Positions 13,322 through 32,541 of a DNA stretch of 46,801 nt are shown here, piece after piece. The stretch lies in IMG/VR virus record IMGVR_UViG_3300032046_000050, positions 1-46,801 of that record; one strand, given 5' to 3'. This DNA comes from a virus. A model generated the notes under the pieces. That model was not told where the DNA came from. It made no database searches and saw only the letters and a list, made by a program, of their open reading frames with translations. Position 1 is the first letter of the stretch. Every line of letters begins with the position of its first letter. The position numbers and the translations under genes were made by a program.

Positions 13322-13739
13322 TTTTCCTCTCCTTTAAACGTTTTCCGAGTTCTTCGAGGAGAGTGATATAACCCATAGATTCAACACGCTCGGTTGCTTT
13401 GCCCCTGATTAATAGCCAGTGCCTCATTAACTCTATCGTGTCATGCGTTGATAATCCTTCTTTCTTCAGTTTCTTTTGTAGGGGTTTGAGTCCATCTCCG
13501 AGTAAACTTCGGGCTATTCTTTCTTGGGTGGCTACTATATCAGTCAGCTCATCGTCAAGTCTAATCTCGTGCTTTACGTTGACTGACTGTCGTTTTCCTT
13601 CCCAGTTGTATTTGTGATACCATTCCCAGAGAGTTTGTTTAGAGGGGTGTCCGCCGAGTTCTTTGCTTATCTGCTCCATGGATATTCCCTCTATCCATCG
13701 CTTTAAAGCTTCATTTTTAGTTGATTTAGGATATGGCAT
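13305..13739 (-). CDS. terS: Terminase small subunit
   Basis: 144 residues. The N-terminal helix-turn-helix (ALKRWIEGISMEQISKELGG, then SKQTLWEWYHKYNW) is the DNA-recognition domain common to small terminases; a coiled-coil middle and a basic C-terminus follow, suited to oligomerisation and contact with TerL. It directly precedes and overlaps TerL. It would choose the packaging site. Its start overlaps the upstream radical SAM gene by 14 bases. Confidence 0.82.
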   Translation of the reverse strand: MPYPKSTKNEALKRWIEGISMEQISKELGGHPSKQTLWEWYHKYNWEGKRQSVNVKHEIRLDDELTDIVATQERIARSLLGDGLKPLQKKLKKEGLSTHDTIELMRHWLLIRGKATERVESMGYITLLEELGKRLKERKNAGST

Positions 13740-14973
13740 CTAATCCCACCCATTTATACTTTAATTTGTTGCCTTCCTTTATAGGTTTGAGTCCCTTGAA
13801 GAATATAGACGGATTTACGCTCTTGGGGTTCTTCCATGCTTCTTCCATATAATCCTTAATCGTGTAGTCTATGTGCTGAATCCTGTATCTTCTGTCTTGG
13901 GTATTCCACATGTCCGCTACATGCTGTAATTCCATATATGGTTTTATCTCCAAATCCTCGAAACCGATTGTTCCCTTTTCTTTGGCTTTGAAAAGTAGTT
14001 TATTATAACACGATAGTTTTGAGTCCATATCGGGTATTTCGCCTTCTAATATACCGCAACAGGCATAACCGTCTCCGAGTGCTCTTGTTTGATTCTCGGC
14101 TGAAAAGAACTGTAAGTTGTGTTTATGTGCCAGTTCCTTTATGTTCTTCATTATCTTAAGTTTGTATGTATATGGATATTCCTTGTCTGCTCCCCTCGTT
14201 TCGCCTAAGGTATTCAGTTCTGTCAATACGTCTCTGCCTAAAACTTTGCCCAATTCTTTCCACTGCATCTTTACTCTTGAAGTTTGAAATACCGACAGTT
14301 TTAAGAATTCCACTGTTACCGCATCCGCTCCCGCCTCTTTAATAGCACCCATATAGTTATCTAATGATTCGTTCTCAAATATGCTCGGTATAAATGGTTG
14401 TAATCTCACTATGAGTTTCTTGACATGGGGACGCAGTTCTTTCATGGCTTTTAATCGTTCGGAGGGTAATGGTGCCCGTGGTTCGAGTTTCCTTGCCAGT
14501 TCATCATCTAAAGTTGTAAGGGTTACTTGTAATACGTAATTGCCCTTTCCGAACAGTTCTTTATATTCCACTGGCGGATTCTTTGTGCTGAATATGGCTG
14601 GATAATGGTATTTATTTAATAGTTCTAAGGTTTGCTTTCCTATTCCGTGTATCTCTTCTTCGCCCTTAGGAAATGGGTCGAACATTCCGCCTATATGTAG
14701 GGGTTGTCTTACGTTGAATAGAAATTGTATCATACGATTGAAACCGTGTCCGTGCCCGTATTCATTTCTAAGGTATTTTTCAATAACATTTAATTGTATA
14801 TGCCCCTGAACCTTGCCAAATACTTTATCTAAGAAACTTGCATTAGCGAAGAATTGTGTTAATGAAAAACAGTATCTACATGAATGGGGACAACCCTGAT
14901 AAATATCGAAACTTAAAGCGTAGGGGCAGAAATAAAATTGGGAACTAAGCTTTAGATTGTTAAATTTCTTCAC
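13726..14973 (-). CDS. Radical SAM protein, spore-photoproduct-lyase-like family
   Basis: 415 residues. C28-x3-C32-x2-C35 (GCPHSCRYC) binds the 4Fe-4S cluster that cleaves SAM. The fold is the SPL-like (COG1533-type) barrel, seen in FSTKNPP, VTLTTLDD and ELRPHVKKLIVRLQPFIP. A second Cys group (YACCGI and later SKLSCYNK) may hold an auxiliary cluster or bind substrate. It lies in the packaging operon between ParB-like and TerS and overlaps both neighbours or nearly so. Members include DNA-lesion lyases and many uncharacterised enzymes; substrate cannot be inferred. Viral DNA repair or base modification is one reading. Confidence 0.8.
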   Translation of the reverse strand: MKKFNNLKLSSQFYFCPYALSFDIYQGCPHSCRYCFSLTQFFANASFLDKVFGKVQGHIQLNVIEKYLRNEYGHGHGFNRMIQFLFNVRQPLHIGGMFDPFPKGEEEIHGIGKQTLELLNKYHYPAIFSTKNPPVEYKELFGKGNYVLQVTLTTLDDELARKLEPRAPLPSERLKAMKELRPHVKKLIVRLQPFIPSIFENESLDNYMGAIKEAGADAVTVEFLKLSVFQTSRVKMQWKELGKVLGRDVLTELNTLGETRGADKEYPYTYKLKIMKNIKELAHKHNLQFFSAENQTRALGDGYACCGILEGEIPDMDSKLSCYNKLLFKAKEKGTIGFEDLEIKPYMELQHVADMWNTQDRRYRIQHIDYTIKDYMEEAWKNPKSVNPSIFFKGLKPIKEGNKLKYKWVGLDAIS

Positions 14974-14977
14974 GTTA

Positions 14978-15529
14978 TCACTTCAATATTAGCTCTATTA
15001 TTGCGGCTTCCCTTCGTTTTGCTTGTTTTTCAGCGTATTCAATAAATATGTCATGTTCTTCTTTTGTGAAGAATAATGTCTCGGGAAAGATTGCGTTTTT
15101 ATTATCAGATTCAAATTCCCTATCGAACATGCTCTTATCGTCATCTGTTGACAGTAAGGCAGACAATTCTAAATCCGAGAATCCCGTTAAATTTATCTCA
15201 GTTTCTCCGAGTTCTTTGATTACATCCTTTAATTTATCGTAATCCCATTCGCCATGTATTTTATTTAGAGCAAGATTTAGGGTTTTTTCCTTAGATTCGG
15301 ATAGATTAACAACAACAACTTCGACTTCTTTTGCTTCTTGTTTCTTTAGAACTTCGAGTCTTTGGTGTCCGCCGACTACTTTGCCACTTTTTTCATTCCA
15401 GACTATCGGTTCTATGTATCCGAACTCAGTAATGCTACGCTCTAATGCGTCCATCTGTTCCTTAGACATCTTTCTTGGATTATTGTCCCACGGAATCAAT
15501 TTCTCAATCGGTATTTTTCTAAGTTCCAC
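14978..15529 (-). CDS. ParB/Srx-fold nuclease-like protein
   Basis: 183 residues. The N-terminal ParB-like domain is clear: RKIPIEKLIPWDNNPRKM, then FGYIEPIVWN and VVGGHQRLEVLK. The C-terminal 90 residues are helical and acidic (ALNKIHGEWDYDKLKDVIKE). In phages such domains often come with DNA methylases or near terminase genes and may act as nickases or DNA-binding switches; no methylase domain is attached here. There is no HTH like that of true partition ParB, so plasmid-type partition is not implied. Confidence 0.8.
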   Translation of the reverse strand: MELRKIPIEKLIPWDNNPRKMSKEQMDALERSITEFGYIEPIVWNEKSGKVVGGHQRLEVLKKQEAKEVEVVVVNLSESKEKTLNLALNKIHGEWDYDKLKDVIKELGETEINLTGFSDLELSALLSTDDDKSMFDREFESDNKNAIFPETLFFTKEEHDIFIEYAEKQAKRREAAIIELILK

Positions 15530-18561: not shown

Positions 18562-19386
18562 TCAACCACTTATGTGCATGTCCTTTACTCTCAGTCCGTT
18601 CCTGCATAGTTCTGGATAGAGTTTGATTTTGAGGACACCTGGCTTAATCGGTTCGTAACCTCTTTTGGCTTCGTAACCGTCTGCTCCCTCAATTGGGTGT
18701 CTCAGCATACCGCCAGTTATGCCGTATAGTCTTTTCCTCTGGGTTAACATATATCTGCCATGCCCCGCCTTAACTTCATTCAATAAGTCGGTGGCATACA
18801 CTAACTTATGTAGATGTCCCATGAGATAAATGTCGGCATCGTTGCTTCGGGATTTAGCAATTATCTTATTGAGAGCCATTCCGACTGTTCCGCCACCACC
18901 ATTTCCGTGTGTGCTGTATAGTGTAAAGTTAGCGATTGCTCTATTTTCATTCTTTACTTTACGTTCAAATCTCAATAAAGTCAGTGCTTCCCAACCGAGA
19001 TATTTCACTCCGAGAGATTTTGCTAAGTCCAAATCAGGGTCGTTAAATTCTCTGGTGGTTAATGTATCACCATGGTGTCCTGAATGCAGTCCGATTATCT
19101 TGTCTTTGATTTTATCGAACCATTTGTAGATATATGCATATTGTTCTGATGGGCGATATTCATCTATTACTCTGTAGTCATATCGTTTGTCTATTGGATT
19201 AATGCAGTCGCAATAGTCTCCCATTCCGATAACAAGAATTTCTTTCTGTTTCTTAATCCAATTTATAGTGTCCTCGAAATACTTCGTGTCGCACTTCTTG
19301 CTACCATAGTGTATGTCGCCTATGGGTATTATGACAGGACGATAGTTCCTACCACGATATCCAATATTTACTACTTGAACTTCCAT
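18562..19386 (-). CDS. Metallophosphoesterase (calcineurin-like)
   Basis: 274 residues. Metal-binding motifs in order: GDIH (D24, H26), GMGDYCD (D57), GLHSGHH (H101-H104 in place of GNH), STHGNGG (H160) and GHLH (190-193). This is the full calcineurin-like set found in Mre11/SbcD-type nucleases and other phosphoesterases. No capping domain. It is coupled to a PD-(D/E)XK nuclease gene (1-base overlap) and an OB-fold gene, so DNA processing is the best reading. The missing Asn of GNHD would be unusual for a nuclease. Confidence 0.82.
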   Translation of the reverse strand: MEVQVVNIGYRGRNYRPVIIPIGDIHYGSKKCDTKYFEDTINWIKKQKEILVIGMGDYCDCINPIDKRYDYRVIDEYRPSEQYAYIYKWFDKIKDKIIGLHSGHHGDTLTTREFNDPDLDLAKSLGVKYLGWEALTLLRFERKVKNENRAIANFTLYSTHGNGGGGTVGMALNKIIAKSRSNDADIYLMGHLHKLVYATDLLNEVKAGHGRYMLTQRKRLYGITGGMLRHPIEGADGYEAKRGYEPIKPGVLKIKLYPELCRNGLRVKDMHISG

Positions 19387-19955
19387 TATATCACTACCTT
19401 ATAGTTATTGACGTAGGGGTTTAAGATACTGATGGCTACATCCCTCGGAATAGCCAAGCCGATTGAATTTCTTTCGGCTGTTGCTGTTTTATACCAAGAT
19501 AGTTTCTCTACCTCGGCTGGTAATAGTCCTTCTTGTCCTTGTTTCTTCATTCTTAGTTCGTCTATTTCTTGTCGTGTTTTGATTAAATACTCTCTCAGTG
19601 CCTTCATATTGAACCGATAGAGAGTGAAATCCTCTACGAAATAATACCATAGTTCGTCGGATGTCGTTATAAATAGGCATCCATTTGCTCCAGTCACTCT
19701 CCCGATTTCAAAGAAGAAATTAGGTAGTTTGGTGAAGTCTATTTTTGCTTCTATGCTAAGTAGGATTTTATTTCCTGATTTAACTAAGAAGTCTACATCT
19801 TGTTTTTGATATTCTAAATCCTTCCTAACATCCATAACTACCCATGGGTTTCCCCCCCACGTCTCTGGGTTGTTGTTGACAAGTCTCCGCAGTAATTCAA
19901 CCTCTACTTCATCGGCTCGCTTGACGTCTCTCTCAAATTGGCTCGGGGTTTCCAT
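19386..19955 (-). CDS. PD-(D/E)XK nuclease-like protein
   Basis: 189 residues. KQDVDFLV (D53/D55), then SIEAK (E69, K71) gives the D-x13-E-x-K core on a beta hairpin, as in restriction-endonuclease-fold nucleases. The C-terminal half is helical and charged (REYLIKTRQEIDELRMKKQG). Genes next door encode a phosphoesterase and an OB-fold protein, suggesting recombination or end processing. A restriction-like defence role is less likely given the context. Confidence 0.65.
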   Translation of the reverse strand: METPSQFERDVKRADEVEVELLRRLVNNNPETWGGNPWVVMDVRKDLEYQKQDVDFLVKSGNKILLSIEAKIDFTKLPNFFFEIGRVTGANGCLFITTSDELWYYFVEDFTLYRFNMKALREYLIKTRQEIDELRMKKQGQEGLLPAEVEKLSWYKTATAERNSIGLAIPRDVAISILNPYVNNYKVVI

Positions 19956-19960: not shown

Positions 19961-20443
19961 TTACTCCGAAATCTTCTTAACTGCTTCGAATAAGACAGTT
20001 GCTTCTTTTATCACTGAGTCGGTTGTCTTCTCCTTATTGAATAAAGGATTTGACACGATGTTATAGGCATGTCCGAGGCAGTTCATAAAGGTTATTTTGT
20101 CGTCCTTTACTGCCCAGACTGTCTTCCCCTTACCGAGTTTCTTCACTTTTGTTCCCTCTTTCTCTGGCGTGTATTCGGAATCCACTACTGGTTCTTCTGA
20201 TTCTAAGTGAGCCATAATGCCCGCAAACTCAGTTATGATTGGGTTCTTCCCCGTCTTGCTGTCCGTATAGTTCACGGTTATTCTCTCTCCTTCTACCAGT
20301 GTGTTTCTGATTGCTTCACAGTGTTCCCTGCTTTTGTCGAAGTAGGTATATTCGGTTTTATCCAGTTTCAAAACGAAGTAGGTATTCCCAGTCCTTGCCG
20401 TTCCGAGTTCTCCCACCAGTTTTATTTCCCCCTCTACTTTCAT
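19961..20443 (-). CDS. OB-fold single-strand-DNA-binding-like protein
   Basis: 160 residues. Residues 1-70 alternate strands (GEIKLVGELG, NTYFVLKLDKTEYTYF, GERITVNY) in an OB-fold pattern with aromatic residues for base stacking. An acidic linker follows, and a C-terminal helical domain (FMNCLGHAYNIVSNPLFN) could contact partners. Position with two nucleases supports ssDNA binding in recombination or replication. The fold is inferred by eye, without a named family. Confidence 0.55.
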   Translation of the reverse strand: MKVEGEIKLVGELGTARTGNTYFVLKLDKTEYTYFDKSREHCEAIRNTLVEGERITVNYTDSKTGKNPIITEFAGIMAHLESEEPVVDSEYTPEKEGTKVKKLGKGKTVWAVKDDKITFMNCLGHAYNIVSNPLFNKEKTTDSVIKEATVLFEAVKKISE

Positions 20444-21211: not shown

Positions 21212-21352
21212 TCACTCCCTAAGTTTGCAGATTACAACGAATCCGCACCCTGGACATACATAATCTATATGTCCTTCGCCCTGCTCTGCTCTTATCAAGC
21301 GTTTCTTGTCTACTCTGCGTTTGCAATCCCTACACCAATAACTCTCTTTCAT
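21212..21352 (-). CDS. Zinc-ribbon microprotein
   Basis: 46 residues: CRDCKRR at 7-13 and CPGCGFVV near 33, a classical four-Cys zinc ribbon with a short loop. ATG start, 1 base after the upstream stop and 4 bases before the next start. Function unknown. Confidence 0.55.
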   Translation of the reverse strand: MKESYWCRDCKRRVDKKRLIRAEQGEGHIDYVCPGCGFVVICKLRE

Positions 21353-21353: not shown

Positions 21354-21560
21354 CTATCCCTCCAGCAGTTTATATGCTCGTTTCTCCGTTGTTGCTATGA
21401 CTTCTTGACATTCCGAACACTCGTATTCTAATCCGCCATCACTAACGAATTCCTTACTATCATCATCGTAGCCATCCTTGCTCATGAAAGTTCTGTATTC
21501 TCCAGATTCCCAACAAACAAGTGCCCTTACTGGTTTTTTACATTTCGGACAATTCATCAT
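21354..21560 (-). CDS. Zinc-ribbon protein next to the amidotransferase
   Basis: 68 residues with CPKCKKPV and CSECQEV separated by about 45 residues of acidic linker, a zinc ribbon of XPA/TFIIS-like spacing. I take the ATG at 21560 because it overlaps the amidotransferase stop (ATGA). It is coupled to that enzyme and could be part of the same complex. Confidence 0.6.
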   Translation of the reverse strand: MMNCPKCKKPVRALVCWESGEYRTFMSKDGYDDDSKEFVSDGGLEYECSECQEVIATTEKRAYKLLEG

Positions 21561-22582
21561 TCCCACCTCTCCCATGTATCTCCATCGTCTATTGTTCCGA
21601 TGTAATAATCTCGTATTCTGCTTATTTCATATAAAGTTAATGCCGCACAGTCTATTGCTTTTTCTTTTAGTTCATCCAACATCCAGGTCGGTGCCGTCAT
21701 TCTCCAAGAATATGCTCCATTTTTTACAAAGAAGATGTCGTCCCTGAAAATATCGGATAGTTCTTCCGCTAATATACTTACATCTTCTTCGTCGCTGTAG
21801 CACATATTTTCCTCTCTATACGGATAGTATCTGAACACTTGCACGTGTGATGTTTCTTTCGGCTTTATTTTTCCTCTTTTAACTAATTTTACCCCATCTA
21901 TCTCATATACTATGTCCTCTTCTGGTTCAAGTTCCGCAGTTACTACATACCTGCGTCTCTTAAGTCCGTTGATTAGAATCTTCTCCGTGTCCCTGAAAAC
22001 ACAGGTGAGATTTCTCGAATCGGTAGAACCAACCAGCATTTTTCTGCTCACGCTTTCTATTCTCGCAAATAAGAAACTGGCGGAGTGCTTGACATAAAAC
22101 ACTTTCTTGTCTGGCTTGTGTATGATGAATACCGACAATCCCCCACCGAGTTGGTTTAATGCGGACTTGATTGCCTTTATTAATCCCTTCTTGTAGTATT
22201 TTTCCAATAAGACTCCTATCATCTGGCTATCTACCGCACACTTTACCTTATACTTTTCTTCCAGAGCGGCGTAGTTGTCTATTATCCCATTATGAGCAAA
22301 GATGAAATGCTCACTCTCGAATGGGTGGGAGTTCGGTTTACATGGCTTCCCAGACGTTGTTGCTCTGTTGTGCCCGAGGAAAAACGTTCCCTTCAGTTTA
22401 TTCTCGAATTGCTTTTTGTCTGCGAGAGCATATTTGTCCCCATCTTTTATTATCTCTACCCCGTCTGTTACTCCCCAACCGTCTTTGTTGTAGTCGTTTC
22501 CCTGCCATAGCATCTCATTTAATTCGTGTATGGCTTTCTTTCCCAAGTCCTTATCCGATGATATCAAATGTAGTTGACACAT
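21557..22582 (-). CDS. Class II glutamine amidotransferase (Ntn hydrolase)
   Basis: 341 residues from the ATG at 22582. This start leaves Cys2 as the N-terminal nucleophile after Met removal, as the family requires; a start 36 bases upstream would bury it. Other motifs: GHNRATTSG (70-78, Arg73 for glutamine), HPF (86-88), AHNGIIDN (96-103, oxyanion Asn/Gly) and DSQMIG (Asp118). The C-terminal 130 residues are not a synthetase and have no known partner domain. It would release ammonia from glutamine or act on a gamma-glutamyl amide. It starts one base after the amidoligase stop, with a GGAGG site inside that gene. Confidence 0.85.
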   Translation of the reverse strand: MCQLHLISSDKDLGKKAIHELNEMLWQGNDYNKDGWGVTDGVEIIKDGDKYALADKKQFENKLKGTFFLGHNRATTSGKPCKPNSHPFESEHFIFAHNGIIDNYAALEEKYKVKCAVDSQMIGVLLEKYYKKGLIKAIKSALNQLGGGLSVFIIHKPDKKVFYVKHSASFLFARIESVSRKMLVGSTDSRNLTCVFRDTEKILINGLKRRRYVVTAELEPEEDIVYEIDGVKLVKRGKIKPKETSHVQVFRYYPYREENMCYSDEEDVSILAEELSDIFRDDIFFVKNGAYSWRMTAPTWMLDELKEKAIDCAALTLYEISRIRDYYIGTIDDGDTWERWE

Positions 22583-22583
22583 G

Positions 22584-23825
22584 TTATTCATCCTCCCCGC
22601 TATCGCCGTCATCTTCATCTTCCTCGGTGCGTTCTCGGCTTACATACTCAACCGAATCGTCCTTAAATGCGTTTATTCTTCCCTTAATGTATCTATCTAA
22701 GGTGGTGCTTTTTTTGGTGCATACCTCTAACCATTTTTCGTAGGTTAGGTTCATTATATCTGGGAGTTCTGCTTCAAAAATCAGCCACCTTAGGAAGTTT
22801 CTATGAACTCTCAACCAGTGTATGAATTTTCTCCAGTTGGTTGTCCCTGCGTGTAATCTAATCTCTACCGTGTTTCTGTAGTATAGAGAATGCAGATTTA
22901 CCCAGTGATACCTTTTTCCGTTGTTATCCATTTTGTAGTTTTCGGGAATGTCGTATTCGTTCTTAATCCGCTCATCATAATAGTAACTCAACAGGCGGAA
23001 CATCCCCCGTGTCTTTAAAATTTGGTTCGAGTCGTATGCTTTCAACGATTTGCAGAAATCGTTTTTCCTTCTGCTTCCAGGCACCATCTTAAAGAAGAAA
23101 TCCTCTGCTCTGATATACCCTAACAATATCTTCTTTAGGTTTATTGTCGTTATCAAGTCTGGGTGCATATATAGGTGTGCGTGGTATCCGCATGATGAAT
23201 TGACTTTACATGCCGTTGCAAGTTTCTTCATACCGTCCTTTATTAGTCTTCTTTGTTCAGTCTTAGTCATGTCAAACGGTGGTATTAAGAACTCCTTGGG
23301 AATTCCGTGTCCGTCTATAGAGGCATCATCGGTTATTCCCCAGTGACGCAGTTCGGGGCACATGACATCCAGTTCTCCGATAACTAATGTCTCGAGTTCT
23401 GCCCCTGCGATGTTGAAAGAACTCACGGATTTTCGCAGGTTCTTCTCTTTCACTAACCAGTTCTCTTCTACTTTTCTATATACGTTTCTTATGCCGTCTT
23501 TCTTCACCCATTCAACGTAACAGTCTATACATCTACAGCCAGGTTGTTCGGCATAGTCTTCCCTGTCAAATACCTCCTTACAACCCACGCACATAAAGTA
23601 ACGTTCACCGAAACAAGTCGTGCACAAGTCTATTTGCTTAAACCAACTTCGGTTTTTCTTATCCAATTTACCGCACTGGGAACAAACAAAGTAGTTTTTC
23701 ACGCATTTTTTACATATCCGCATTTTATCGAATCTGGCGAGTCCCTTATCCTTATCTGATTCTCGTCCACAATCGTAACACGGACATTTAATCTGTTCTA
23801 TTATTGCTACTGAACGTGTTGGCAT
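22584..23825 (-). CDS. Putative amidoligase with N-terminal zinc-ribbon array
   Basis: 413 residues. Residues 14-102 carry about 12 Cys in C-x2-C pairs (14/16/19, 38/41, 48/51, 68/71, 79/82, 97/99/102), a string of three or four treble-clef or ribbon units. Residues 135-385 match the amidoligase_2 (glutamine-synthetase-fold ligase) pattern: GAELE (141-145), DASIDG (167-172), E178 in PKEFLIPP, CGYHAHLYM (212-220), and TVEIRLHAGTTN (319-330) with E321 and R323. The C-terminus is very acidic. It would join a carboxylate and an amine using ATP; substrate unknown. The zinc array suggests binding to a nucleic acid or protein target. It pairs with the amidotransferase. Confidence 0.82.
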   Translation of the reverse strand: MPTRSVAIIEQIKCPCYDCGRESDKDKGLARFDKMRICKKCVKNYFVCSQCGKLDKKNRSWFKQIDLCTTCFGERYFMCVGCKEVFDREDYAEQPGCRCIDCYVEWVKKDGIRNVYRKVEENWLVKEKNLRKSVSSFNIAGAELETLVIGELDVMCPELRHWGITDDASIDGHGIPKEFLIPPFDMTKTEQRRLIKDGMKKLATACKVNSSCGYHAHLYMHPDLITTINLKKILLGYIRAEDFFFKMVPGSRRKNDFCKSLKAYDSNQILKTRGMFRLLSYYYDERIKNEYDIPENYKMDNNGKRYHWVNLHSLYYRNTVEIRLHAGTTNWRKFIHWLRVHRNFLRWLIFEAELPDIMNLTYEKWLEVCTKKSTTLDRYIKGRINAFKDDSVEYVSRERTEEDEDDGDSGEDE

Positions 23826-24464: not shown

Positions 24465-24489
24465 CTTGACACCCGAGTTGTTAAGCGGG

Positions 24490-24502
24490 TTTTATTAATA
24501 AA
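24490..24502 (-). promoter_or_regulatory. TATA-like box for the HTH gene
   Basis: Minus strand CTTTATTAATAAA ends 26 bases before the ATG at 24464, spacing that suits a leaderless transcript. Confidence 0.4.
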
Positions 24503-24538
24503 GCTTGGGTTTAAACTGTTCAAAACATGCCAGTTTTC

Positions 24539-24784
24539 GTTAACCTTGTGCCGTTAATCTATGAAAGGTTAACAAAGTTAATCGGGTTGGCTCACGCTCA
24601 GGCTCATTAATAGATATAGTTAATAGTTAATAAAACAGTTAATAAAGTTAATAATATATTGATTAATTAGTATCAGTTTTCATTAATCCCTCATTAACCT
24701 ATTAACCTTATTTTGGGGTTTCTGGGTTCGTCTCGGTGCCATTAACTTTGTTAACCTTTTGTAGATTAATGTCGAAAGGTTAAT
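24539..24784. other. Candidate replication origin: inverted repeat and iterons
   Basis: The left arm 24554-24582 and right arm 24741-24769 are an inverted repeat of 29 bases with only a 2-base central mismatch: 8 bases TTAATCTA and 19 bases AAAGGTTAACAAAGTTAAT (the complement on the other side). Between them lie four direct AGTTAATA copies (24618, 24625, 24637, 24646) and an AT-rich core. Extra half-copies (GTTAACCTT at 24539; AAAGGTTAAT at 24775) flank it. This is the longest stretch without a gene (about 315 bases), lies next to an HTH gene and separates two operons. Origin is the best reading; a long operator is the alternative. Confidence 0.5.
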
Positions 24785-25835
24785 GCTCAATAATTCCTAC
24801 AAGTTTCTTGGCACTTTCTGCCCAAGTCCTATCTTTCACATCTATGAGTCTTTTCTTGTCCTCAATTTGCCCTCTGTTCTCGTAGATATCTCTCAATAGC
24901 TTGACAAGGTGTTCAGAAGATGGCGTAGCGAGATTGACTTCCTCGTATAAATAGTCGTTACCCGAATATGGCTCTAAAGTATAGTCAATTAGCCACCCAT
25001 TTTGACTGTTTACGTAATCTAAATGTCCTCCCCAGTTTGTTACCATATTAGGAACTCCGCATGCCATCGATTCTAAGGCAGGCATATTGAAAGCTTCGCC
25101 TTTGCTCGGATATACCATCAAATCTTGTGCCCGATAGAACTCTGCCATTTGGTTATCTGTAAACTCACCCATGTAGAGACTCATCGCTGGACGTTTATTC
25201 AATTCGGGTAAGTTCAGTGTCTTTAGTGATTCGTCTACCATTTCTCTTGATTGATATGCCATGTTCAATTTGATATTGAGAGCCACATCATCTTTATTGT
25301 CAAAAGCGGTGCAGTATGCTTCAAGGAGATATTGGAGTCCTTTTCTGTCATTTTTTCCCTGTGCCCAGCCACCAGCGAAACCGAAGTTTAAACCCCGCTT
25401 TTGATTCATCTCCATTTTGTTACCTACCGTTGAAAAAACTTCTGGGTTGAAGCCGTGAGGGATTAAATCTATATCCGCTTTACAGAATTTAGCCCTCTCT
25501 ACCAAATCTTGACAGAAGACAGAGGGAACAAGAACTCGTTTGATATAGCCTTTATTCAGGACATCAACCCAGAATTGAGGCAACTTATCGCCCTCATAAA
25601 TAAGAAATCCGTTGAAATTATATTTACTCGCACTGAACAAGTCCCAGAATGGCGGGGTGGTGATACAGACTAAGTTATCATAAAGTTCATCCCGAGATAG
25701 ATGTTTAGTTTGAAACCCGTGCCCATTTAGGGATGCCGCTCCGATTGTCGTGAACTTAGAACAAGCTAAAGCTAAATTAGAGGTATGTTTGGCATAACCC
25801 GATGTTCCCTGATAGCTTCCAAGAATACTTATCAT
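24780..25835 (-). CDS. Glycosyltransferase, GT-B fold (GT4-like)
   Basis: 351 residues. N-terminal GYAKHTSNLALA and middle NFGFAGGWAQGKNDRKGLQYLLEA are typical of GT4-type retaining transferases, with LMVYPSKGEAFNMPALESMACGVP as the donor-binding EX7E motif (two Glu seven residues apart). It would add a sugar from a nucleotide-sugar donor, in the cytoplasm or at the membrane. Last gene of the glycan cassette, next to the origin candidate. Start chosen by ATGA overlap with the upstream small gene. Confidence 0.85.
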   Translation of the reverse strand: MISILGSYQGTSGYAKHTSNLALACSKFTTIGAASLNGHGFQTKHLSRDELYDNLVCITTPPFWDLFSASKYNFNGFLIYEGDKLPQFWVDVLNKGYIKRVLVPSVFCQDLVERAKFCKADIDLIPHGFNPEVFSTVGNKMEMNQKRGLNFGFAGGWAQGKNDRKGLQYLLEAYCTAFDNKDDVALNIKLNMAYQSREMVDESLKTLNLPELNKRPAMSLYMGEFTDNQMAEFYRAQDLMVYPSKGEAFNMPALESMACGVPNMVTNWGGHLDYVNSQNGWLIDYTLEPYSGNDYLYEEVNLATPSSEHLVKLLRDIYENRGQIEDKKRLIDVKDRTWAESAKKLVGIIEH

Positions 25836-25999
25836 CTTAATCCAGCCAATAATCCTCTGATGTAATCCTTACTTGAAGCGACTTTACAACTCTCGATGCT
25901 ATCTTCTAAACTTTTGATTCTGGCTTTAACCTTTTCTTTAGTCATTACGTTCTTTTCTATCAGTCCGTGTTGCTTTCCAGTATCGTAACTATTCACCAT
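25832..25999 (-). CDS. Hypothetical small helical protein
   Basis: 55 residues with a charged helix (TKEKVKARIKSLEDSIESC). Stop overlaps the GT start (ATGA) and the start overlaps the preceding small frame by 11 bases. The in-frame codons just before the ATG, back to a TAG, also look protein-like, so the real start could be a non-ATG codon. Weak support. Confidence 0.45.
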   Translation of the reverse strand: MVNSYDTGKQHGLIEKNVMTKEKVKARIKSLEDSIESCKVASSKDYIRGLLAGLR

Positions 26000-26144
26000 A
26001 GCTTCCGCATCCCTCTGAGTTATCCCCAGTTGATAAGTCGTGTGCTAAGGTATCTAATGCGTGCTTGAAGTCGCTTAAGGATTTTTGACTTTGGCTTCCC
26101 CAAGATTCTGTTTTTCCATCGATTTTTGATTGTCTCTCTCCCAT
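25989..26144 (-). CDS. Hypothetical microprotein (low support)
   Basis: 51 residues, polar (S, G, K, D-rich) with a short helix FKHALDTLAHDL. It lies largely inside the 3' end of the PD-(D/E)XK-like gene in another frame. I list it because it would close the gap between coupled genes; composition alone is not convincing. Confidence 0.3.
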   Translation of the reverse strand: MGERQSKIDGKTESWGSQSQKSLSDFKHALDTLAHDLSTGDNSEGCGSYGE

Positions 26145-26461
26145 AGTTTCACCACACTTACGTTTTGTCCTTTGAATCGTTCTGCTCTTTTTTTGTTGGT
26201 TTCAATTTCAAATATTTCCCCCGTATCTAAACAAACAATATCTCTCCTGAATCCAGTTTTGTTCTCAACCGCTTCCGTTATGAAGTCGTATCCTTGTAAT
26301 TTTAACCAATAGCAAATCTTGAACTTCTCAAACTCATGTTCCCAGGAGTTCATCGGGGTGATGTAGATAGCATTCTTGGCACGCTTGATATAATTATTAC
26401 ATCCAGGCGTATGAAAACTTCTCATCACCGATATTTTAGCCAATAATAACTTCTTTTTCAT
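26075..26461 (-). CDS. Restriction-endonuclease-fold (PD-(D/E)XK-like) protein
   Basis: 128 residues. EHEFEKFKICYWLKLQGYDF, then RRDIVCLD (D74) and EIFEIETNKKRAE (E85, E87, K90) give a D-x10-E-x-E...K pattern on a beta hairpin, as in small archaeal nuclease-like domains of unknown partner. C-terminal 20 residues are charged. It sits inside the glycosyltransferase cassette. It could act in host DNA attack or defence against other viruses; substrate unknown. Confidence 0.55.
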   Translation of the reverse strand: MKKKLLLAKISVMRSFHTPGCNNYIKRAKNAIYITPMNSWEHEFEKFKICYWLKLQGYDFITEAVENKTGFRRDIVCLDTGEIFEIETNKKRAERFKGQNVSVVKLWERDNQKSMEKQNLGEAKVKNP

Positions 26462-26579
26462 TCTGTTCCTCTATTAGTAATGTGACTCTGGAATTAAGAT
26501 ACCTCAATCCTATTTGTAAGTCAGTGAGTTGGTGTCTTAGTTCTCTTAATTCTTTCCTTACGTTTTCTAACCCAGTCAT
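26436..26579 (-). CDS. Hypothetical coiled-coil protein
   Basis: 47 residues: LENVRKELRELRHQLTDLQ has regular heptads. Overlaps the nuclease-like start by 26 bases. An alternative frame at 26527-26619 encodes a 30-residue acidic then basic peptide (starting MDTPEEEDEEDDDW), so which frame is used is not certain. Confidence 0.4.
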   Translation of the reverse strand: MTGLENVRKELRELRHQLTDLQIGLRYLNSRVTLLIEEQNEKEVIIG

Positions 26580-26602
26580 CGTCTTCCTCTTCGTCTTCTT
26601 CT

Positions 26603-26827
26603 TCAGGCGTATCCATAATTGTCCCAGATTTTCTTTTTTAAATCCATTCCGATTAATATTCCCCGTTCCAACATGTCTTTAGCTAAATCCGTGTTGAAGC
26701 TTTTTTTATCCCTTTCTTCCGTTTCCACCAAATGTTCTATTAAATCTTGCAAGCATTCATGGTGCTCGTTGACTCTGACTACCAGTTCGTTCAATTTCTT
26801 CGTTAGATTTTTCCTTCTTCGTGCCAT
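26603..26827 (-). CDS. Small coiled-coil protein
   Basis: 74 residues, N-terminus very basic (MARRRKNLTKKLNEL), then helices with heptads, then FNTDLAKDMLERGILIGMDLKKK. The 5' end overlaps the glycosyltransferase stop by 25 bases. A helical adaptor of the cassette; no family recognised. Confidence 0.55.
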   Translation of the reverse strand: MARRRKNLTKKLNELVVRVNEHHECLQDLIEHLVETEERDKKSFNTDLAKDMLERGILIGMDLKKKIWDNYGYA

Positions 26828-27603
26828 TTGAGTAATCTCTTCTTAAGCCAGATAGTGTTTTCATTAACCTGTCTGACGTATTCCGCAGGTGGTATCCTAA
26901 CTCCGCCAGATTGTGCCTGAAGATGCCAACATAGTGCTTCAGGAACGGTGTATAGTTTATATCCGTTGACTCTAAGTTTGACTGTGAAATCTGTTTCCTC
27001 TCTGAATCCAGACATTCCGAGGTTTTCTGGGTGTAGTCCGACTTCAACTGCCGCTTTCTTCGAAAAGAGGAAACTGCTCCTAAGGTGGTGACTGGGTATG
27101 GGTTCAACACCGTAATAACTGAATCCACCATCGTCTTTAATCTCGACATCATCCTTGAATATTAACTCGTTGAAAGTATTTAAAGCTTTACGTCGCCAAA
27201 TCGGTTGTCCGAGAACTGGCACGATTCCACCAATAGCACCCACCTTTTCTCCCTTGTTAGTTAGTTTGTGGTAATAATAGTTTAACAGGGATAGATAGTT
27301 TTCGTCCAATACCGAGTCATCATCTGCTCTTAGACATAATTCAGATTTAGATTCCAATATAGCCATGTTCCTACTTCTACCTATTCCTTTCCCAGAGTCA
27401 TCACGAAGGTAGGTTACCCCATGTCCATCAAACTTGAATCTCATCAGGATGTCATTAATCATCTTCCACTTTCTTGCGTCCTCTCCAGAATCGACTATTA
27501 TTAAATCCCAGTCATCAATCGATTGATTCCAGAGACTGACAAGACATCCGTAGAGTTCACCTGCTCTGTTTTTTGTGCAGATTTGAACCGATATGTTTTC
27601 CAT
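26803..27603 (-). CDS. Glycosyltransferase family 2-like
   Basis: 266 residues of GT-A type: VQICTKNRAGELYGCLVSLW, DLIIVDSGED, GIGRSRNMAILESKSELCLR and the metal-binding DDDS (RADDDS), then EETDFTVKLRVNGYKLYTVPEALCWH near the C-terminus. Inverting transferase of the rhamnosyl/polysaccharide type. It overlaps the next small gene (25 bases). Part of the surface-glycan cassette. Confidence 0.85.
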   Translation of the reverse strand: MENISVQICTKNRAGELYGCLVSLWNQSIDDWDLIIVDSGEDARKWKMINDILMRFKFDGHGVTYLRDDSGKGIGRSRNMAILESKSELCLRADDDSVLDENYLSLLNYYYHKLTNKGEKVGAIGGIVPVLGQPIWRRKALNTFNELIFKDDVEIKDDGGFSYYGVEPIPSHHLRSSFLFSKKAAVEVGLHPENLGMSGFREETDFTVKLRVNGYKLYTVPEALCWHLQAQSGGVRIPPAEYVRQVNENTIWLKKRLLKWHEEGKI

Positions 27604-27734
27604 TTTTCCTCATTCCAGTGTAGTTGTCTCCTTATTAATTCCCCATGTCTTTTACAATAACGAATGAATGGTTTACCCGACATGGTGACATAAGTGACTG
27701 AATCTTGACTGCAATTATTATATTCGCACTTCAC
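27501..27734 (-). CDS. Small zinc-binding-like protein
   Basis: 77 residues from a GTG that overlaps the upstream stop (GTGA, 27734-27731). CEYNNC near the N-terminus and CKRHGE about 25 residues later make a C-x4-C ... C-x2-H site. Its last 100 bases lie inside the GT2 gene, in another frame, which is unusually long for overlap here; the C-terminal part may be non-essential. Confidence 0.45.
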   Translation of the reverse strand: MKCEYNNCSQDSVTYVTMSGKPFIRYCKRHGELIRRQLHWNEEKWKTYRFKSAQKTEQVNSTDVLSVSGINRLMTGI

Positions 27735-27805
27735 TTCTTCACCCGATAAATACATGATTGACAGCAATACTCTGGTGGGCATCGTCTCCAATATTTACAT
27801 TTCAT
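27731..27805 (-). CDS. Cys-rich 24-residue microprotein
   Basis: 24 residues with five Cys (C3, C9, then CC and C around 14-18), a very compact possible zinc or disulfide knot. ATG overlaps the methyltransferase stop (ATGA) and the stop overlaps the next GTG. Too short to judge by composition; coupling on both sides is the support. Confidence 0.4.
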   Translation of the reverse strand: MKCKYWRRCPPEYCCQSCIYRVKK

Positions 27806-28221
27806 TTCTCCAACTCCAAGTATAAAGAATCGTCTTTTATCTCCCCCTTAACCAGTTTGTATTGCCCGTTAACCCCAGCATTATCACTGTTGTAATCTTT
27901 ATGTAACCAGAAATCAAAACTTTCTGGAATGAAATAATGGACATGTGTCGGGTCGATGAATGCCCATTTGCCAGAGATTAAAGGCACGGATAGTTTTAAC
28001 CTCCCGCCGATTTTAAGTGTCCTATAAAATTCATTCATTACAAATACTAAGTCTTTAATGTGCTCTAAAGTCTGCTCGCAAAATATCTCATCAAAAGTAT
28101 AATCATTATAAGGGAGTCCTTTCTCTATGTCCCTGCAAACATCTGGATTGACAAAAGGATTGCAGTCTAAATTGATATATTCCCCCATCTTCTTCTTACC
28201 GCAACCGACATTAAGTTTCAT
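27802..28221 (-). CDS. SAM-dependent methyltransferase
   Basis: 139 residues. Motif I LNVGCGKK at the very N-terminus, motif post-I LDCNPF, and the EHI-type EQTLEHIKDLVFVMNEFYRTLKIGG step of class I, methyltransferase-11-like enzymes. The usual N-terminal extension is absent, so it is a minimal catalytic domain. Likely methylates a sugar or lipid in the cassette. Confidence 0.78.
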   Translation of the reverse strand: MKLNVGCGKKKMGEYINLDCNPFVNPDVCRDIEKGLPYNDYTFDEIFCEQTLEHIKDLVFVMNEFYRTLKIGGRLKLSVPLISGKWAFIDPTHVHYFIPESFDFWLHKDYNSDNAGVNGQYKLVKGEIKDDSLYLELEK

Positions 28222-28445
28222 TCAAACCACTCTTTAATTACCCAAGCGAAAAGATAAATCAAGAACATGATTGAGAATATCAAGATGAACATTTCGGGAA
28301 CTAATATCCATGAGTTAGGCTCGTAGTGACAAGCTATTCCACCCTGAGCAATTATTATAAAATCGTATAGCTTTATGCCACATACTATTATTGCCGATAG
28401 CATAGAAAGTATAAATGCAACAAGCATGTTTGTAGTCTTCATCAT
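28218..28445 (-). CDS. Small membrane protein
   Basis: 75 residues with two hydrophobic helices (about 6-30 and 47-68: LVAFILSMLSAIIVCGIKLY and ILVPEMFILIFSIMFLIYLF). Overlaps both neighbours by 4 bases. Could anchor the glycosylation machinery at the membrane; no family recognised. Confidence 0.6.
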   Translation of the reverse strand: MMKTTNMLVAFILSMLSAIIVCGIKLYDFIIIAQGGIACHYEPNSWILVPEMFILIFSIMFLIYLFAWVIKEWFE

Positions 28446-29044
28446 TCGAATACCCCAGCTAAAACTCCTTCCGAATCGAATAGATAAGTTGTGTCTATTG
28501 GAGTAAATTTCTTATAACCATATTCTTTAAACAAATCCTTCCACCATCTCTTAGTTCGGCAGGTTATGTGTGTCTTGTCCTTCCTGCTCGCATCAAACAC
28601 GAAATCCTCGCCATCTTTCGTGCAAATCGGTATCTTAACCAGCAATTTATTCGCCATCAGATTTAGCAACAGCATCCTAATACTTTTCTCTTTCATATGT
28701 TCTAATACGTCCAAGAACAGAACGTAATCGAACTTAGTTGTGCGTATGAAATTATCCCAGAACTTATCTACATGAACTATTAATCCCTTATTCTTTAAAA
28801 TCCTATGCCCCTCTTTCAAGGCATAATCACTGATGTCTGTTCCTATTGCGATAACTCCATAGCTCCTTAACTCGCTAACTAATATCCCCATAGCACAACC
28901 ATAGTCTAAAACAAACATTCCACCCAAATCGAATAGTTTGACTAAATCATTTGCGACTACTATAGTTTTTGGTGTAACTTGTTCTGCATAACCATAATAA
29001 TTGCTATCTTTTCCGTCTTCGAAATATGCTTTGCCGAATTTCAA
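28442..29044 (-). CDS. SAM-dependent methyltransferase
   Basis: 200 residues from a TTG at 29044 that overlaps the preceding stop (TTGA); an upstream start would extend 120 bases into that gene. Motif I MFVLDYGCAMGILVSEL, acidic strand IAIGTDIS, and FDYVLFLDVLEHM with a following LVKIPI strand show a class I fold. C-terminal aromatic WWKDLFKEYGYKKF may bind substrate. Confidence 0.78.
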   Translation of the reverse strand: MKFGKAYFEDGKDSNYYGYAEQVTPKTIVVANDLVKLFDLGGMFVLDYGCAMGILVSELRSYGVIAIGTDISDYALKEGHRILKNKGLIVHVDKFWDNFIRTTKFDYVLFLDVLEHMKEKSIRMLLLNLMANKLLVKIPICTKDGEDFVFDASRKDKTHITCRTKRWWKDLFKEYGYKKFTPIDTTYLFDSEGVLAGVFE

Positions 29045-29622
29045 AATCCCCACTTCTCCCTTAATTTTTGTAGCCCGTCTTTGAAATGAATATCGAGATT
29101 GGTTCCCCATAGTCTCTTCAGCGTTGTGCCGTATTCGTGCTTGTGGTTTAACTCCTCGCACATTTTCGGTTTGAGTCCAACATGCTTCATTCGGATACAG
29201 TAATCGTCCTCCTCGTAACCGCAGAAGAATTGCTCATCAAAATATCCCACTCTTTCTATTGTGTCACGATTTAGATAGCAAAAACCCATTAAACCCCAAT
29301 CATATTTGAATATCCCCCTTTCCTTTACGTCTGCGAGTATAGTTGAGAACCCGACTCCCGCTTCCTTCGCAGTTTTCTTTAGTTTATCAATCCATGTATC
29401 ATCTTCTAATACTATGTCGTCGGATAGCATAATCACATCATTCGGAGCGGAGATTCTAAGTGCCTTATTCCATGCTCTGACATGTCCAACTCTATCTGAT
29501 ACGATTATTAATTCGTAGGGTGTGTGATTGTATCTCGTGTTGTTCTCAATAGAGTCTAAGCATCTCTTAAGAATTTCCCTGCCCTTGGTATCGTTGTAAC
29601 TAACTACCGCTATTGTTATCAT
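29041..29622 (-). CDS. Glycosyltransferase family 2-like
   Basis: 193 residues from the ATG at 29622 (ATGA overlap with the upstream stop). GT-A motifs: VVSYNDTKGREILKRCLDSI, YELIIVSDR, VIMLSDDIVLEDDTW (metal-binding), and GYEEDDYCIRMKHVG (catalytic ED region). Short but with the full core. Confidence 0.82.
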   Translation of the reverse strand: MITIAVVSYNDTKGREILKRCLDSIENNTRYNHTPYELIIVSDRVGHVRAWNKALRISAPNDVIMLSDDIVLEDDTWIDKLKKTAKEAGVGFSTILADVKERGIFKYDWGLMGFCYLNRDTIERVGYFDEQFFCGYEEDDYCIRMKHVGLKPKMCEELNHKHEYGTTLKRLWGTNLDIHFKDGLQKLREKWGF

Positions 29623-30164
29623 TTCTTCACCCAATTCCGTCTGAATTCTACAAGTTCATATACGGGTTCTTCACCAAATCCTTCAAGTTTAATCGGTTGA
29701 TAATCAAACCAGTGTAGGTGTAAGTTATCCTCCGCTCTGTCTCTCCACGGGGTTGTCCAGATTATTCGCTCACCATATTCTTCTAACCAACCGAGAATTT
29801 TTAGTGGTTCTTCGAGGTGTTCCAAAACCTCACTAATGATTATGAAATTGAAGATTGGGTTTGGCTGCCAATCCAAGTATTCGCAGATATACTTTTCTAT
29901 ATCTTCACGAATCCACTCTACTTTATGCTCCGTGTCCTGTGTAGAGGCGTATTGAATAGCCTTTTCAGAGATATCGATTCCAGTGACTCTATGTCCCAAG
30001 CGAGCCAAGACTCGGCAAAGTTCTCCCCCACCGCAACCGACTACAAGTATCCTCTGATTTGGCTGTATAATTCTCTCTATTATGTGAACGTCATACTCCT
30101 TGAGATTTCGGTGCTTATCTATCTTGTCAATAAAGTCCCGCTCATAGACTTCTTTCTTGTCCAT
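29619..30164 (-). CDS. SAM-dependent methyltransferase
   Basis: 181 residues from the ATG at 30164, five bases after the upstream stop. Motifs: ILVVGCGGGELCRVLARLGH, VTGIDIS, FIIISEVLEHLEEPL, and RIIWTTP. This resembles UbiG-type O-methyltransferases. A start 39 bases upstream exists but would overlap the preceding gene. Confidence 0.8.
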   Translation of the reverse strand: MDKKEVYERDFIDKIDKHRNLKEYDVHIIERIIQPNQRILVVGCGGGELCRVLARLGHRVTGIDISEKAIQYASTQDTEHKVEWIREDIEKYICEYLDWQPNPIFNFIIISEVLEHLEEPLKILGWLEEYGERIIWTTPWRDRAEDNLHLHWFDYQPIKLEGFGEEPVYELVEFRRNWVKK

Positions 30165-30168
30165 ATTA

Positions 30169-30330
30169 TTACCCCAGTCCAGTAGGTTTTTTGTGTCCGC
30201 CACTTCCGAAACATAGTGGGCATCTTTTTGGAACTTTGTCGCCGAGATAACCCGAATTAACTTCTACCCAACCCCTTCCACCACAACCCCTACAAACAAC
30301 CCAATTATCCATTCCGTGTATCCAAGTCAT
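30169..30330 (-). CDS. DnaJ-type zinc-finger microprotein
   Basis: 53 residues with CRGCGGRGWV and CPLCFGSGG, i.e. two C-x2-C-x-G-x-G modules as in the DnaJ/HSP40 cysteine-rich domain, here without the J domain. ATG overlaps the radical SAM stop (ATGA). Zinc-binding chaperone-like or adaptor role possible. Confidence 0.55.
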   Translation of the reverse strand: MTWIHGMDNWVVCRGCGGRGWVEVNSGYLGDKVPKRCPLCFGSGGHKKPTGLG

Positions 30331-31259
30331 AAAAACTCCTCATGCTCCCTCGGTTGCATCAAGTCTTCTATCAACATGTTCTGCTCCTTGAAAAAACAGA
30401 GTCCGCATTTCTTCGTGTTAAATGGTTTCGGGTTCGCCCAGATTTGCTTGATTTGAGTCCAGTGCCCCATTCTGAAGTCTGGGTGGAATCTTCTTTCGAG
30501 TAGGGGATTGGCTGAACACTGGTAAAGATATCCATCACTATATAAAAATGGCTTTAAATATCCCATGTAGCAGTTAGTATGAGCCTCGTATTCTTTAGAC
30601 TGAAAAAAAGTATTCGGTATACTTCTAATCATCTTAGGGACTTCTTCCCTTGCCCTCTTAATAGATTCGACAGATAGACAATTCGGAACGACTCGAATAT
30701 ACTTTGCCTTATACTTCTTAGCATAATCAGCTATCTTCTTTAACATCTTGGCATTATATTCCTTGGGTTGGGTGTCGTTCCAGACATAAGAGAAACCGAG
30801 TGTGCATGTATCGGGTAACTTGGGAATGGTTATATCCGATACTTGCTCAAGACAGTTCATAGATATTCTTATCCACATCAACCTTTTTAAACTATCGGGT
30901 GTAAGTGCTTTTAGATTGGTTCCATTTGTTATCAACCCGCACTTGAGATGAAAGAGTCCATCTGTAATTATGAATATTAAGTCGTTTATATCCTTATACA
31001 TCGTCGGTTCTCCGCCACCAGTGAGTTCGACTGTCTTCAATCCGAGGTTCTTAAGTGCTTCTATCGAGTCTTTCATCGTATCCCACTTCAGTTCGTTCTG
31101 CTCTCGATTCCAGACACTACAAAAGGGGCATTTAAGATTACAGACGTCGGTTGGCGATAACTGTAAAGATTGCGGACGGAGTTTACCTTCCTTAATCTCC
31201 ATTATTTTTTCTGGGTTTCTGATTAACTTTGATGCCGTGCTTGTATAGATTCTTTCCAT
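30327..31259 (-). CDS. Radical SAM enzyme, SPASM-like
   Basis: 310 residues from the ATG at 31259 (TAATG with the upstream gene; an ATG six bases upstream is an alternative). CNLKCPFC is the 4Fe-4S site. ELTGGGEP and ISMNCL barrel strands follow. The C-terminal Cys group CYMG ... CSANPL ... KKCGLC looks like a SPASM/twitch auxiliary cluster. Such enzymes modify peptides or make sugar and lipid groups. In a glycan cassette it may act on a sugar donor, or on a small peptide encoded nearby. Confidence 0.82.
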   Translation of the reverse strand: MERIYTSTASKLIRNPEKIMEIKEGKLRPQSLQLSPTDVCNLKCPFCSVWNREQNELKWDTMKDSIEALKNLGLKTVELTGGGEPTMYKDINDLIFIITDGLFHLKCGLITNGTNLKALTPDSLKRLMWIRISMNCLEQVSDITIPKLPDTCTLGFSYVWNDTQPKEYNAKMLKKIADYAKKYKAKYIRVVPNCLSVESIKRAREEVPKMIRSIPNTFFQSKEYEAHTNCYMGYLKPFLYSDGYLYQCSANPLLERRFHPDFRMGHWTQIKQIWANPKPFNTKKCGLCFFKEQNMLIEDLMQPREHEEFL

Positions 31260-31519
31260 TACCATGAAATACTCCAAAATGGTGGATGACTTGTTCCGCA
31301 TTCCTTACATCTGGGTTCCATCTCTTCGACATACATTACGTCTCTTGCTTTAAATAGTTTCCTAATCTTTTCTCTTACCTTCTTATTGTCTCTTTTATAT
31401 TTAGTCGTGATGAATACTTCTGGTTCTTCATCAGCCACTTCGAAATTGTTTCCAGAATAATACGGCTTAATGATATCCCTATTCTCACGTATCAAATCTT
31501 GGATTTCCTCTATTTCCAT
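31259..31519 (-). CDS. Small protein with C-terminal Cys pair
   Basis: 86 residues, acidic N-terminal helix, basic middle (YKRDNKKVREKIRKLFKAR), and RCKECGTSHPPFW at the end. It directly precedes and couples to the radical SAM enzyme, so it could be its carrier or substrate, but this is only context. Confidence 0.5.
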   Translation of the reverse strand: MEIEEIQDLIRENRDIIKPYYSGNNFEVADEEPEVFITTKYKRDNKKVREKIRKLFKARDVMYVEEMEPRCKECGTSHPPFWSISW

Positions 31520-31657
31520 TTAGATTACCCCCAATATTTTTAATAGCACCATCAACAACGCTGGCGGAATCAATAAACAAATTCCCCCATAGATTACGAG
31601 TAACGCTGCTAATGCATCTTTTGCCCAATCCCATAAATCTATTTCTATTCGCATCAT
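31520..31657 (-). CDS. Small membrane protein
   Basis: 45 residues, one long hydrophobic helix (ALLVIYGGICLLIPPALLMV). An ATGATG pair is the start, after GGTGAA. The stop is next to the following ATG. Possible membrane anchor. Confidence 0.5.
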   Translation of the reverse strand: MMRIEIDLWDWAKDALAALLVIYGGICLLIPPALLMVLLKILGVI

Positions 31658-31663
31658 TTCACC

Positions 31664-31864
31664 TCAACTGTGGAGAATGCTTTCTCCCCGTATACATTCT
31701 TTTAATGCATCCAACATTTGTGCTCTGCTTATTCTCAAACAAAATTCCTTCGTCAGTTCTTCAGTTGGTAATGCCCTTATCCTCGCAAGTTCTGTTCTAT
31801 ACCATTTCTCACGGGCATCAGTTATCTTCATATTCTTATCTAACGTTAATGAACCATGTCTCAT
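31664..31864 (-). CDS. Hypothetical small helical protein
   Basis: 66 residues, charged helices (REKWYRTELARIRALPTEEL). ATG at 31864 overlaps the GT stop (ATGA). Not recognised. Confidence 0.5.
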   Translation of the reverse strand: MRHGSLTLDKNMKITDAREKWYRTELARIRALPTEELTKEFCLRISRAQMLDALKECIRGESILHS

Positions 31865-32541
31865 ATCCAATCCCTCAAGATTTCAATCGGTTGCTCTCCT
31901 TCAAATGGTTTAACCAAATATCTTCCATATAAGATATCTTCACAGTATCTTTTGTAATCGGCTGGATTGTGCATTTCCCATCTGGCTTTTTCAGTTCTCC
32001 ATTTATTCCGCATGTAACAATAAAGTCCTTTAACGTAACCAAAATGGTATATGATTGGTTCAGTAATGGTATATTCATTAGTTCCTTGCGGTAGCCCGTG
32101 CATAGTATTGGGTGGATAGTTAAGCCTTTTTGTGAGTCTGTTTTTGAAGATATGGATAGGTAATGTGGAGTCGATGGTAACCAGATTGAATATAAAATGG
32201 TATCCGATGAGGCTAATGGCGTCGTAACTCTTTGTGATATAGTCCTTGATGAGGTATTTCTTCTCCCCCAGTATTTCATCAGCATCAAGGTGGAGTATCC
32301 AGTCGCCCTTCGCCCGTTCGATGCCGAAGTTTCGTGAGTCTGTGTAAGAGTAAGAGTCTCTCCATCTCTTAATGAAACAGCGTATCTTTTTATCATCGCC
32401 ATACCACTCTTGTATCTTTAATGAGTCGTTGCCATTTGAGTCGACAATAATTATTTCATCGGCTAACTCGTAGACACTATCTACGCAGTTCTTTAATAAA
32501 AAGCTATGCTCGTCTTTGGTTAAAATTATCACACTTAACAT
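31861..32541 (-). CDS. Glycosyltransferase family 2-like
   Basis: 226 residues: SVIILTKDEHSFLLKNCVDSV, DEIIIVDSNGND, GIERAKGDWILHLDADEIL (DAD metal motif), then HIFKNRLTKRLNYPP. Pattern of the WaaE/KdtX-like GT2 group that adds heptose or glucose to surface sugars. The start overlaps the previous stop. Confidence 0.83.
   Translation of the reverse strand: MLSVIILTKDEHSFLLKNCVDSVYELADEIIIVDSNGNDSLKIQEWYGDDKKIRCFIKRWRDSYSYTDSRNFGIERAKGDWILHLDADEILGEKKYLIKDYITKSYDAISLIGYHFIFNLVTIDSTLPIHIFKNRLTKRLNYPPNTMHGLPQGTNEYTITEPIIYHFGYVKGLYCYMRNKWRTEKARWEMHNPADYKRYCEDILYGRYLVKPFEGEQPIEILRDWI

Follow-up and report, generated by a model that had tools for sequence, protein, structure and literature searches.

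A viral amidoligase with a LIM-like cysteine array and a coupled glutamine amidotransferase: a possible zinc-docked form of a phage cassette

Introduction

What reaction might a virus perform with an amidoligase that carries a long N-terminal cysteine array and is coupled to a class II glutamine amidotransferase (GATase)? Such a pair lies in the window analyzed here, a viral contig of 46,801 nucleotides (IMG/VR record IMGVR_UViG_3300032046_000050). The proposal that phages modify peptidoglycan is reportedly due to Iyer et al. in 2009. Amidoligase-GATase pairs in phages are already published. An earlier note on this DNA stated that comparative genomics links such ligases with amidotransferases in peptide-bond or isopeptide modification. 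The two genes occur together in UFV-P2 and other LUZ24-like phages (PMC3890496), OM43 phages (PMC10580990), and Phage-ZRK32 (PMC10945688). RIO-1-like podoviruses carry a "peptidoglycan modification cassette" of two amidoligases, an ATP-grasp enzyme, a gamma-glutamyl cyclotransferase, and a GATase, which has been hypothesized to prevent superinfection, the peptidoglycan substrate being likewise a hypothesis (PMC5498523). Pairs of this kind recur in phages, and a cell-wall or superinfection role is repeated across papers as a hypothesis. Literature searches returned no assay of this enzyme pair and no publication on an amidoligase with a zinc ribbon; judged by title, the matches for the latter concern other subjects.

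Organization of the locus

An open reading frame (ORF) check placed both main ORFs on the minus strand at the coordinates of the earlier note. The adjacency and 1-base coupling described there are confirmed: the TAA stop of the ligase is followed by one base and then by the ATG TGT of the GATase. The features of the locus are as follows.

22584 to 23825, minus strand: array-bearing amidoligase, 413 aa (PF12224, E 2.6e-17; gamma-glutamylcysteine ligase / glutamine synthetase fold)
23520 to 23786, minus strand: LIM-like array, 14 Cys in ligase residues 14-102, arranged as three C4 units that repeat every ~31 residues (alignment; weak LIM-chain profile matches)
22791 to 23411, minus strand: ligase catalytic core, residues 139-345, with GAELE, CGYHAHLYM, and VEIRLHAGT (key residues invariant in 35 sequences)
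21557 to 22582, minus strand: predicted class II GATase, 341 aa, Cys2 nucleophile (PF13522; invariant residues; GlmS glutaminase fold; GGGGAGG before the start)
21354 to 21560, minus strand: 68-aa ORF with two CxxC pairs (sequence; its ATG overlaps the GATase stop)
21212 to 21352, minus strand: 46-aa ORF with two CxxC pairs, an uncertain member of the system (sequence; weak zinc-finger matches)

We infer that ligase and GATase share a transcript. The GATase stop and the start of the 68-aa ORF overlap as ATGA, and the 46-aa ORF begins 1 base after the 68-aa ORF. The earlier note had described 21354-21560 as a coupled, separate zinc-ribbon gene. Its coupling and its two CxxC pairs stand; the zinc-ribbon matches of both small ORFs are weak and all fall below curated cut-offs.

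Catalytic domains of the ligase and the GATase

The C-terminal part of the ligase belongs to Amidoligase_2 (PF12224; 63.9 bits against a cut-off of 22), and the GATase to GATase_6 (PF13522; E 7e-10, 39.4 bits against a cut-off of 27). Both family assignments of the earlier note thus pass an HMM search. Its three ligase motifs, GAELE, CGYHAHLYM, and TVEIRLHAGT, are all present in the window ligase. Across 35 aligned ligases, residues G141, E143, E145, D167, E178, C212, H215, H217, R305, E321, R323, and H325 are invariant. Ten of them (G141, E143, E145, D167, E178, H215, H217, E321, R323, and H325) are the conserved metal/ATP-site residues of Amidoligase_2, and all are kept. An AlphaFold2 model built from the 35-ligase alignment (mean pLDDT 77.4, pTM 0.63) resembles YbdK, gamma-glutamylcysteine synthetase, and glutamine synthetase in Foldseek (best E 1.9e-5). 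Alignment of the model to these folds with VIA-align gave Z scores of 13.0 to 10.2 over 175-250 residues at an rmsd of 3-6.

For the GATase, the mechanically called ORF begins at 22618, 36 bases before a Met-Cys start at 22582. The latter was taken as the start because a GGGGAGG run sits 9 nt upstream of it and its cysteine aligns with a C2 that is invariant among 20 GATases, which bears out the earlier reading of a Cys2 nucleophile once the right start is chosen. The protein keeps C2, R73, H86, N98, G99, and D118, and C2, R73, N98, G99, and D118 are invariant in the same alignment. Loss of catalytic residues is therefore seen in neither enzyme. The GATase model matches the GlmS glutaminase domain (E 1.2e-11), although its mean pLDDT is 62.8, with a C-terminus under 50, and it is good over part of the glutaminase domain only. 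The sequence profile likewise matches GlmS. PurF and AsnB are further matches of the GATase, and all three are ammonia-supplying. On sequence grounds, 21557-22582 is a predicted class II glutaminase.

The N-terminal cysteine array

The earlier note counted roughly twelve cysteines in an unusual, zinc-ribbon-like array. The array itself is real, with 14 cysteines within residues 14-102, of which 12 are in register with relatives and form three CxxC-x16-18-CxxC units at a period of ~31 residues. Among 14 aligned array-bearing ligases, six cysteines are invariant and four nearly so. The best PDB sequence matches of the array profile are LIM proteins, although weak ones (E 0.004 and weaker). The LIM family PF00412 gave no match in the window ligase and scored 21.9 and 20.2 bits in two relatives, L090 and L058, just below the cut-off of 22.9. 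A true LIM domain has a two-residue spacer between its two zinc sites, whereas the inter-unit spacers here are 6 and 7 residues (C41-C48 and C71-C79); hence the array is termed LIM-like. Its sequence thus points to LIM-like modules rather than a zinc ribbon, and it is predicted to bind zinc.

LIM domains are known above all from protein assembly in eukaryotes, and LIM-like modules on a viral enzyme would be unusual. The array, which the earlier note called unusual, is rare in annotated phage genomes but common in uncultured viruses, and it is therefore no peculiarity of this virus.

Conservation of the pair among relatives

As single queries against IMG/VR, the window ligase, GATase, and terminase returned no relatives. 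A search with a seven-sequence ligase alignment returned at least 467, of which 80 were kept for analysis. Amidoligases with a cysteine array are encoded on dozens of contigs from uncultured viruses and also on two Omnitrophica contigs and in one archaeal bin. For counting, a copy was classed as array-bearing if at least three CxxC precede its catalytic core. Of the 56 array-bearing copies, 53 have a GATase within 3 kb (50/52 viral and 3/4 genomic); of the 130 copies that lack the array, 22 do (6/53 viral and 16/77 genomic). These counts are not independent events, because many array-bearing copies come from one lineage. The pair is thus conserved together; failure of the two genes to stay together in relatives would have spoken against the earlier reading.

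One arrangement, shared by 24 of the 80 kept loci, is ligase 1, GATase, a gap, and ligase 2. Ligase 1 (~605 aa) has an internal cysteine cluster, ligase 2 (~380 aa) has the N-terminal array, and most of the GATases end with CxxC...CxxC. In L010 the gap holds a small ORF that matched no family in a family search. The C-terminal CxxC...CxxC of L010-type GATases may be a counterpart of the 68-aa ORF in the window. L015 and L058 show an array-bearing ligase followed by a GATase. In the catalytic-domain tree, the window groups with L015, L058, and L102 (99/88), although its branch is long; five changes are needed to explain the distribution of the array label. One 63,940-base IMG/VR contig, recorded as L013 and L046, holds two separate ligase-GATase-ligase blocks, so it may be a chimera or contain two phages.

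Among genome contigs, the pair is found in the two Omnitrophica contigs and in one assigned to a Nitrososphaeria bin, L144. On the Omnitrophica contig L090 (1509-7563), a type IV secretion / conjugative coupling protein lies near the pair, which may therefore also travel on conjugative elements. The L144 ligase has cysteine-rich motifs close to both ends, and the CxC...CxH motif with which it finishes resembles a SWIM finger. At 2260-7803 that contig encodes, in a row, a DNA methylase, a Cas4-like PD-(D/E)XK nuclease, the amidoligase, and the GATase. The L144 ligase matched nothing as an IMG/VR query. Of 349 genomes drawn from the same phylum, the one with L144 alone has the amidoligase family, so L144 may be misbinned.

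Genomic surroundings and host

The earlier note took the window for an archaeal virus, a claim that is not established. TATA-like motifs were considered as evidence for an archaeal host and rejected: 10 occur on the coding strand against 6.4 expected, and up to 14 appear in 100 randomizations. At low identity, the terminase and portal genes match a mix of Enterococcus, Bacillus, Methanosarcinales, and haloarchaeal viruses.

Elsewhere in the window, 10183-11904 encodes a portal-like protein with a C-terminal Mu F-like domain, apparently a fusion. Just upstream of the terminase genes, 13726-15529 holds a ParB_N gene and a gene resembling radical SAM, whose match is below cut-off, and a Transglutaminase-like cysteine protease domain is encoded at 35028-35810. 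The ORFs at 19386-19955 and 19961-20443 have no Pfam match, and guesses of a nuclease and an OB-fold for them were dropped. The AT-rich, non-coding stretch 24489-24785 is full of GTTAA/TTAAC motifs and contains an inverted repeat (24540-24582 / 24741-24783; 43 nt, 86% complementary); it is a possible origin or regulatory site. A surface-glycan-like cluster at 24780-33719 comprises two GT4- and three GT2-type glycosyltransferases, three methyltransferase-like genes, and a radical SAM gene.

Proposed mechanism and alternative readings

The reading we favor, tentatively and at a probability of roughly 0.45, takes the pair for a stripped form of the phage amidoligase cassette that docks through zinc modules and uses ammonia from glutamine to make an amide, on a substrate that is peptide-like or gamma-glutamyl. 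The ligase would activate a carboxylate with ATP, probably that of such a substrate, and would then form the amide on it. The coupled class II glutaminase would split glutamine at Cys2 and supply the ammonia. The three C4 units, perhaps together with the two-CxxC ORF, may hold the target or the glutaminase in place. What was observed of this scheme is the identity of the genes, their intact motifs, the folds, and the co-conservation of the pair. The reading is favored by the intact active sites of both proteins, the retention of the array across divergent ligases, the adjacency of the pair in otherwise unrelated phages, the ligase fold, the ammonia-supplying neighbors of the GATase, the co-occurrence counts, and the presence of the same enzyme classes in phage cassettes. 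Against it stand the absence from the window of the PF14395 ligase, the ATP-grasp enzyme, and gamma-glutamylamine cyclotransferase (GGACT, PF06094), the poor GATase model past the glutaminase domain, and residue 3 of the GATase, which is Q in the window and G in nearly all relatives. Peptidoglycan peptides, the hypothesized target of bacterial-phage relatives, need not apply to the window pair; if the binning of L144 is correct, its pair would speak against peptidoglycan being the only substrate. The analysis favors none of the targets suggested in the earlier note, a host protein, a nucleotide, or an envelope peptide, over the others.

The main rival, which we consider credible but on balance unlikely, is a gamma-glutamyl on/off system, in which the ligase would attach gamma-glutamate to an amine or thiol and the GATase-like protein would act as a gamma-glutamyl hydrolase. 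EgtA/EgtC in ergothioneine synthesis and PuuA/PuuD in putrescine breakdown offer analogies. The best solved-structure neighbors of the ligase are gamma-glutamyl-cysteine ligases, and the Manatee Spring podovirus has a Peptidase_C26 gene near its pair. EgtC (TIGR03442) matches the GATase weakly, but at 23.7 bits it falls far under its cut-off of 218.65, and the GATase is far nearer GlmS.

The distribution of GGACT also speaks for this rival. The gene was found in 20 of 24 viral contigs of the array-bearing set, two of which (L033 and L088) have array-less ligases, and in none of 38 random viral contigs, which were drawn by a 15-mer and also have no amidoligase. It occurs as well in 17 of 36 contigs whose amidoligases lack the array and in 27 of 37 helicase-relative contigs; as 34 of these 37 have an amidoligase, they were unfit as an amidoligase-free control and the random sample was used instead. 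GGACT lies at least 5 kb from the ligase where checked, so the association holds at genome level only, and a distance of kilobases from the pair is usual, which weakens the rival. So does the window, where no GGACT was found; the best candidate ORF (E 0.13) was rejected. The GGACT of relatives and the gamma-glutamyl ligase fold nonetheless suit the gamma-glutamyl rival and the amidation reading equally well.

A more far-reaching reading is improbable: the pair would be a virus-encoded machine on LIM-like docking modules, with a host or viral protein, not peptidoglycan, as the target of its amidation or gamma-glutamylation, and viruses and mobile elements of bacteria and archaea alike would use it. 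Protein tagging as such, in which a host or viral protein docked by the array would be amidated or gamma-glutamylated by the pair in favor of infection, is rather improbable. LIM domains usually bind proteins, and the array recurs on divergent ligases. However, no target or fused substrate was seen, and the array may merely hold the partner enzyme.

Amidation of a virus-directed surface glycan, turning its uronic acids into uronamides, would draw on the glycosyltransferases, methyltransferases, and radical SAM gene just upstream, yet ~1 kb with an HTH-like gene and the AT-rich non-coding region separates them from the pair. In the relatives inspected, we noted no comparable cluster next to the pair, and we regard this reading as quite improbable. 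Auxiliary metabolism that moves glutamine nitrogen into host amino acids is how the same enzyme classes were read in Phage-ZRK32 (PMC10945688), but a docked ligase so divergent from glutamine synthetase would be odd for bulk metabolism, which makes this very improbable. Thymidine hypermodification is not supported (no thymidylate-synthase-family gene in 25 records), and anti-phage defense was set aside (no PADLOC family match).

Comparison with known systems

The glutamine synthetase / gamma-glutamylcysteine ligase superfamily (YbdK, GshA, and glutamine synthetase) has the fold of the ligase catalytic domain, but at ~10-13% identity over the aligned region, and with neither an array nor a GATase partner. 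In the EgtA/EgtC system, an enzyme of glutamate-cysteine-ligase type works with a protein of class-II-GATase fold; EgtA, however, belongs to a different ligase family, and the likeness of EgtC is limited to the weak match given above.

Among phages, the pair was directly observed in NV1, Salgado, a Leptolyngbya phage, and a Manatee Spring podovirus (MW202697); the two genes are adjacent in otherwise unrelated phages, with the ligase usually first. In Arthrobacter phage Salgado (genes 98/99), the amidoligase is directly followed by the GATase, and the 4.7 kb shown contain no other cassette genes; its ligase, unlike that of the window, has no cysteine array and is only ~22% identical.

The cassettes of RIO-1-, phiEco32-, PaP3-, and LUZ24-like phages resemble the locus in that an Amidoligase_2 gene adjoins a class II GATase, within a region of early or replication genes. 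The cyclotransferase of the RIO-1/phiEco32/PaP3 cassette is also present in most array-bearing relatives. PF14395, the phiEco32-like COOH.NH2 ligase type 2, was absent from the window, which is possibly a fragment, and from 17 related array-bearing contigs; the same search detected it in NV1 and MW202697. ATP-grasp families PF07478 and PF08443 were likewise absent from the window and the 17 contigs, although a divergent ATP-grasp could escape this search, which recovered both families in NV1 and PF08443 in MW202697. The window also differs from the RIO-1/phiEco32/PaP3 cassette in its LIM-like array and its missing cyclotransferase. Of that cassette it retains the ligase-GATase core alone, and two adjacent genes with intact catalytic residues form the smallest unit for assaying this chemistry.
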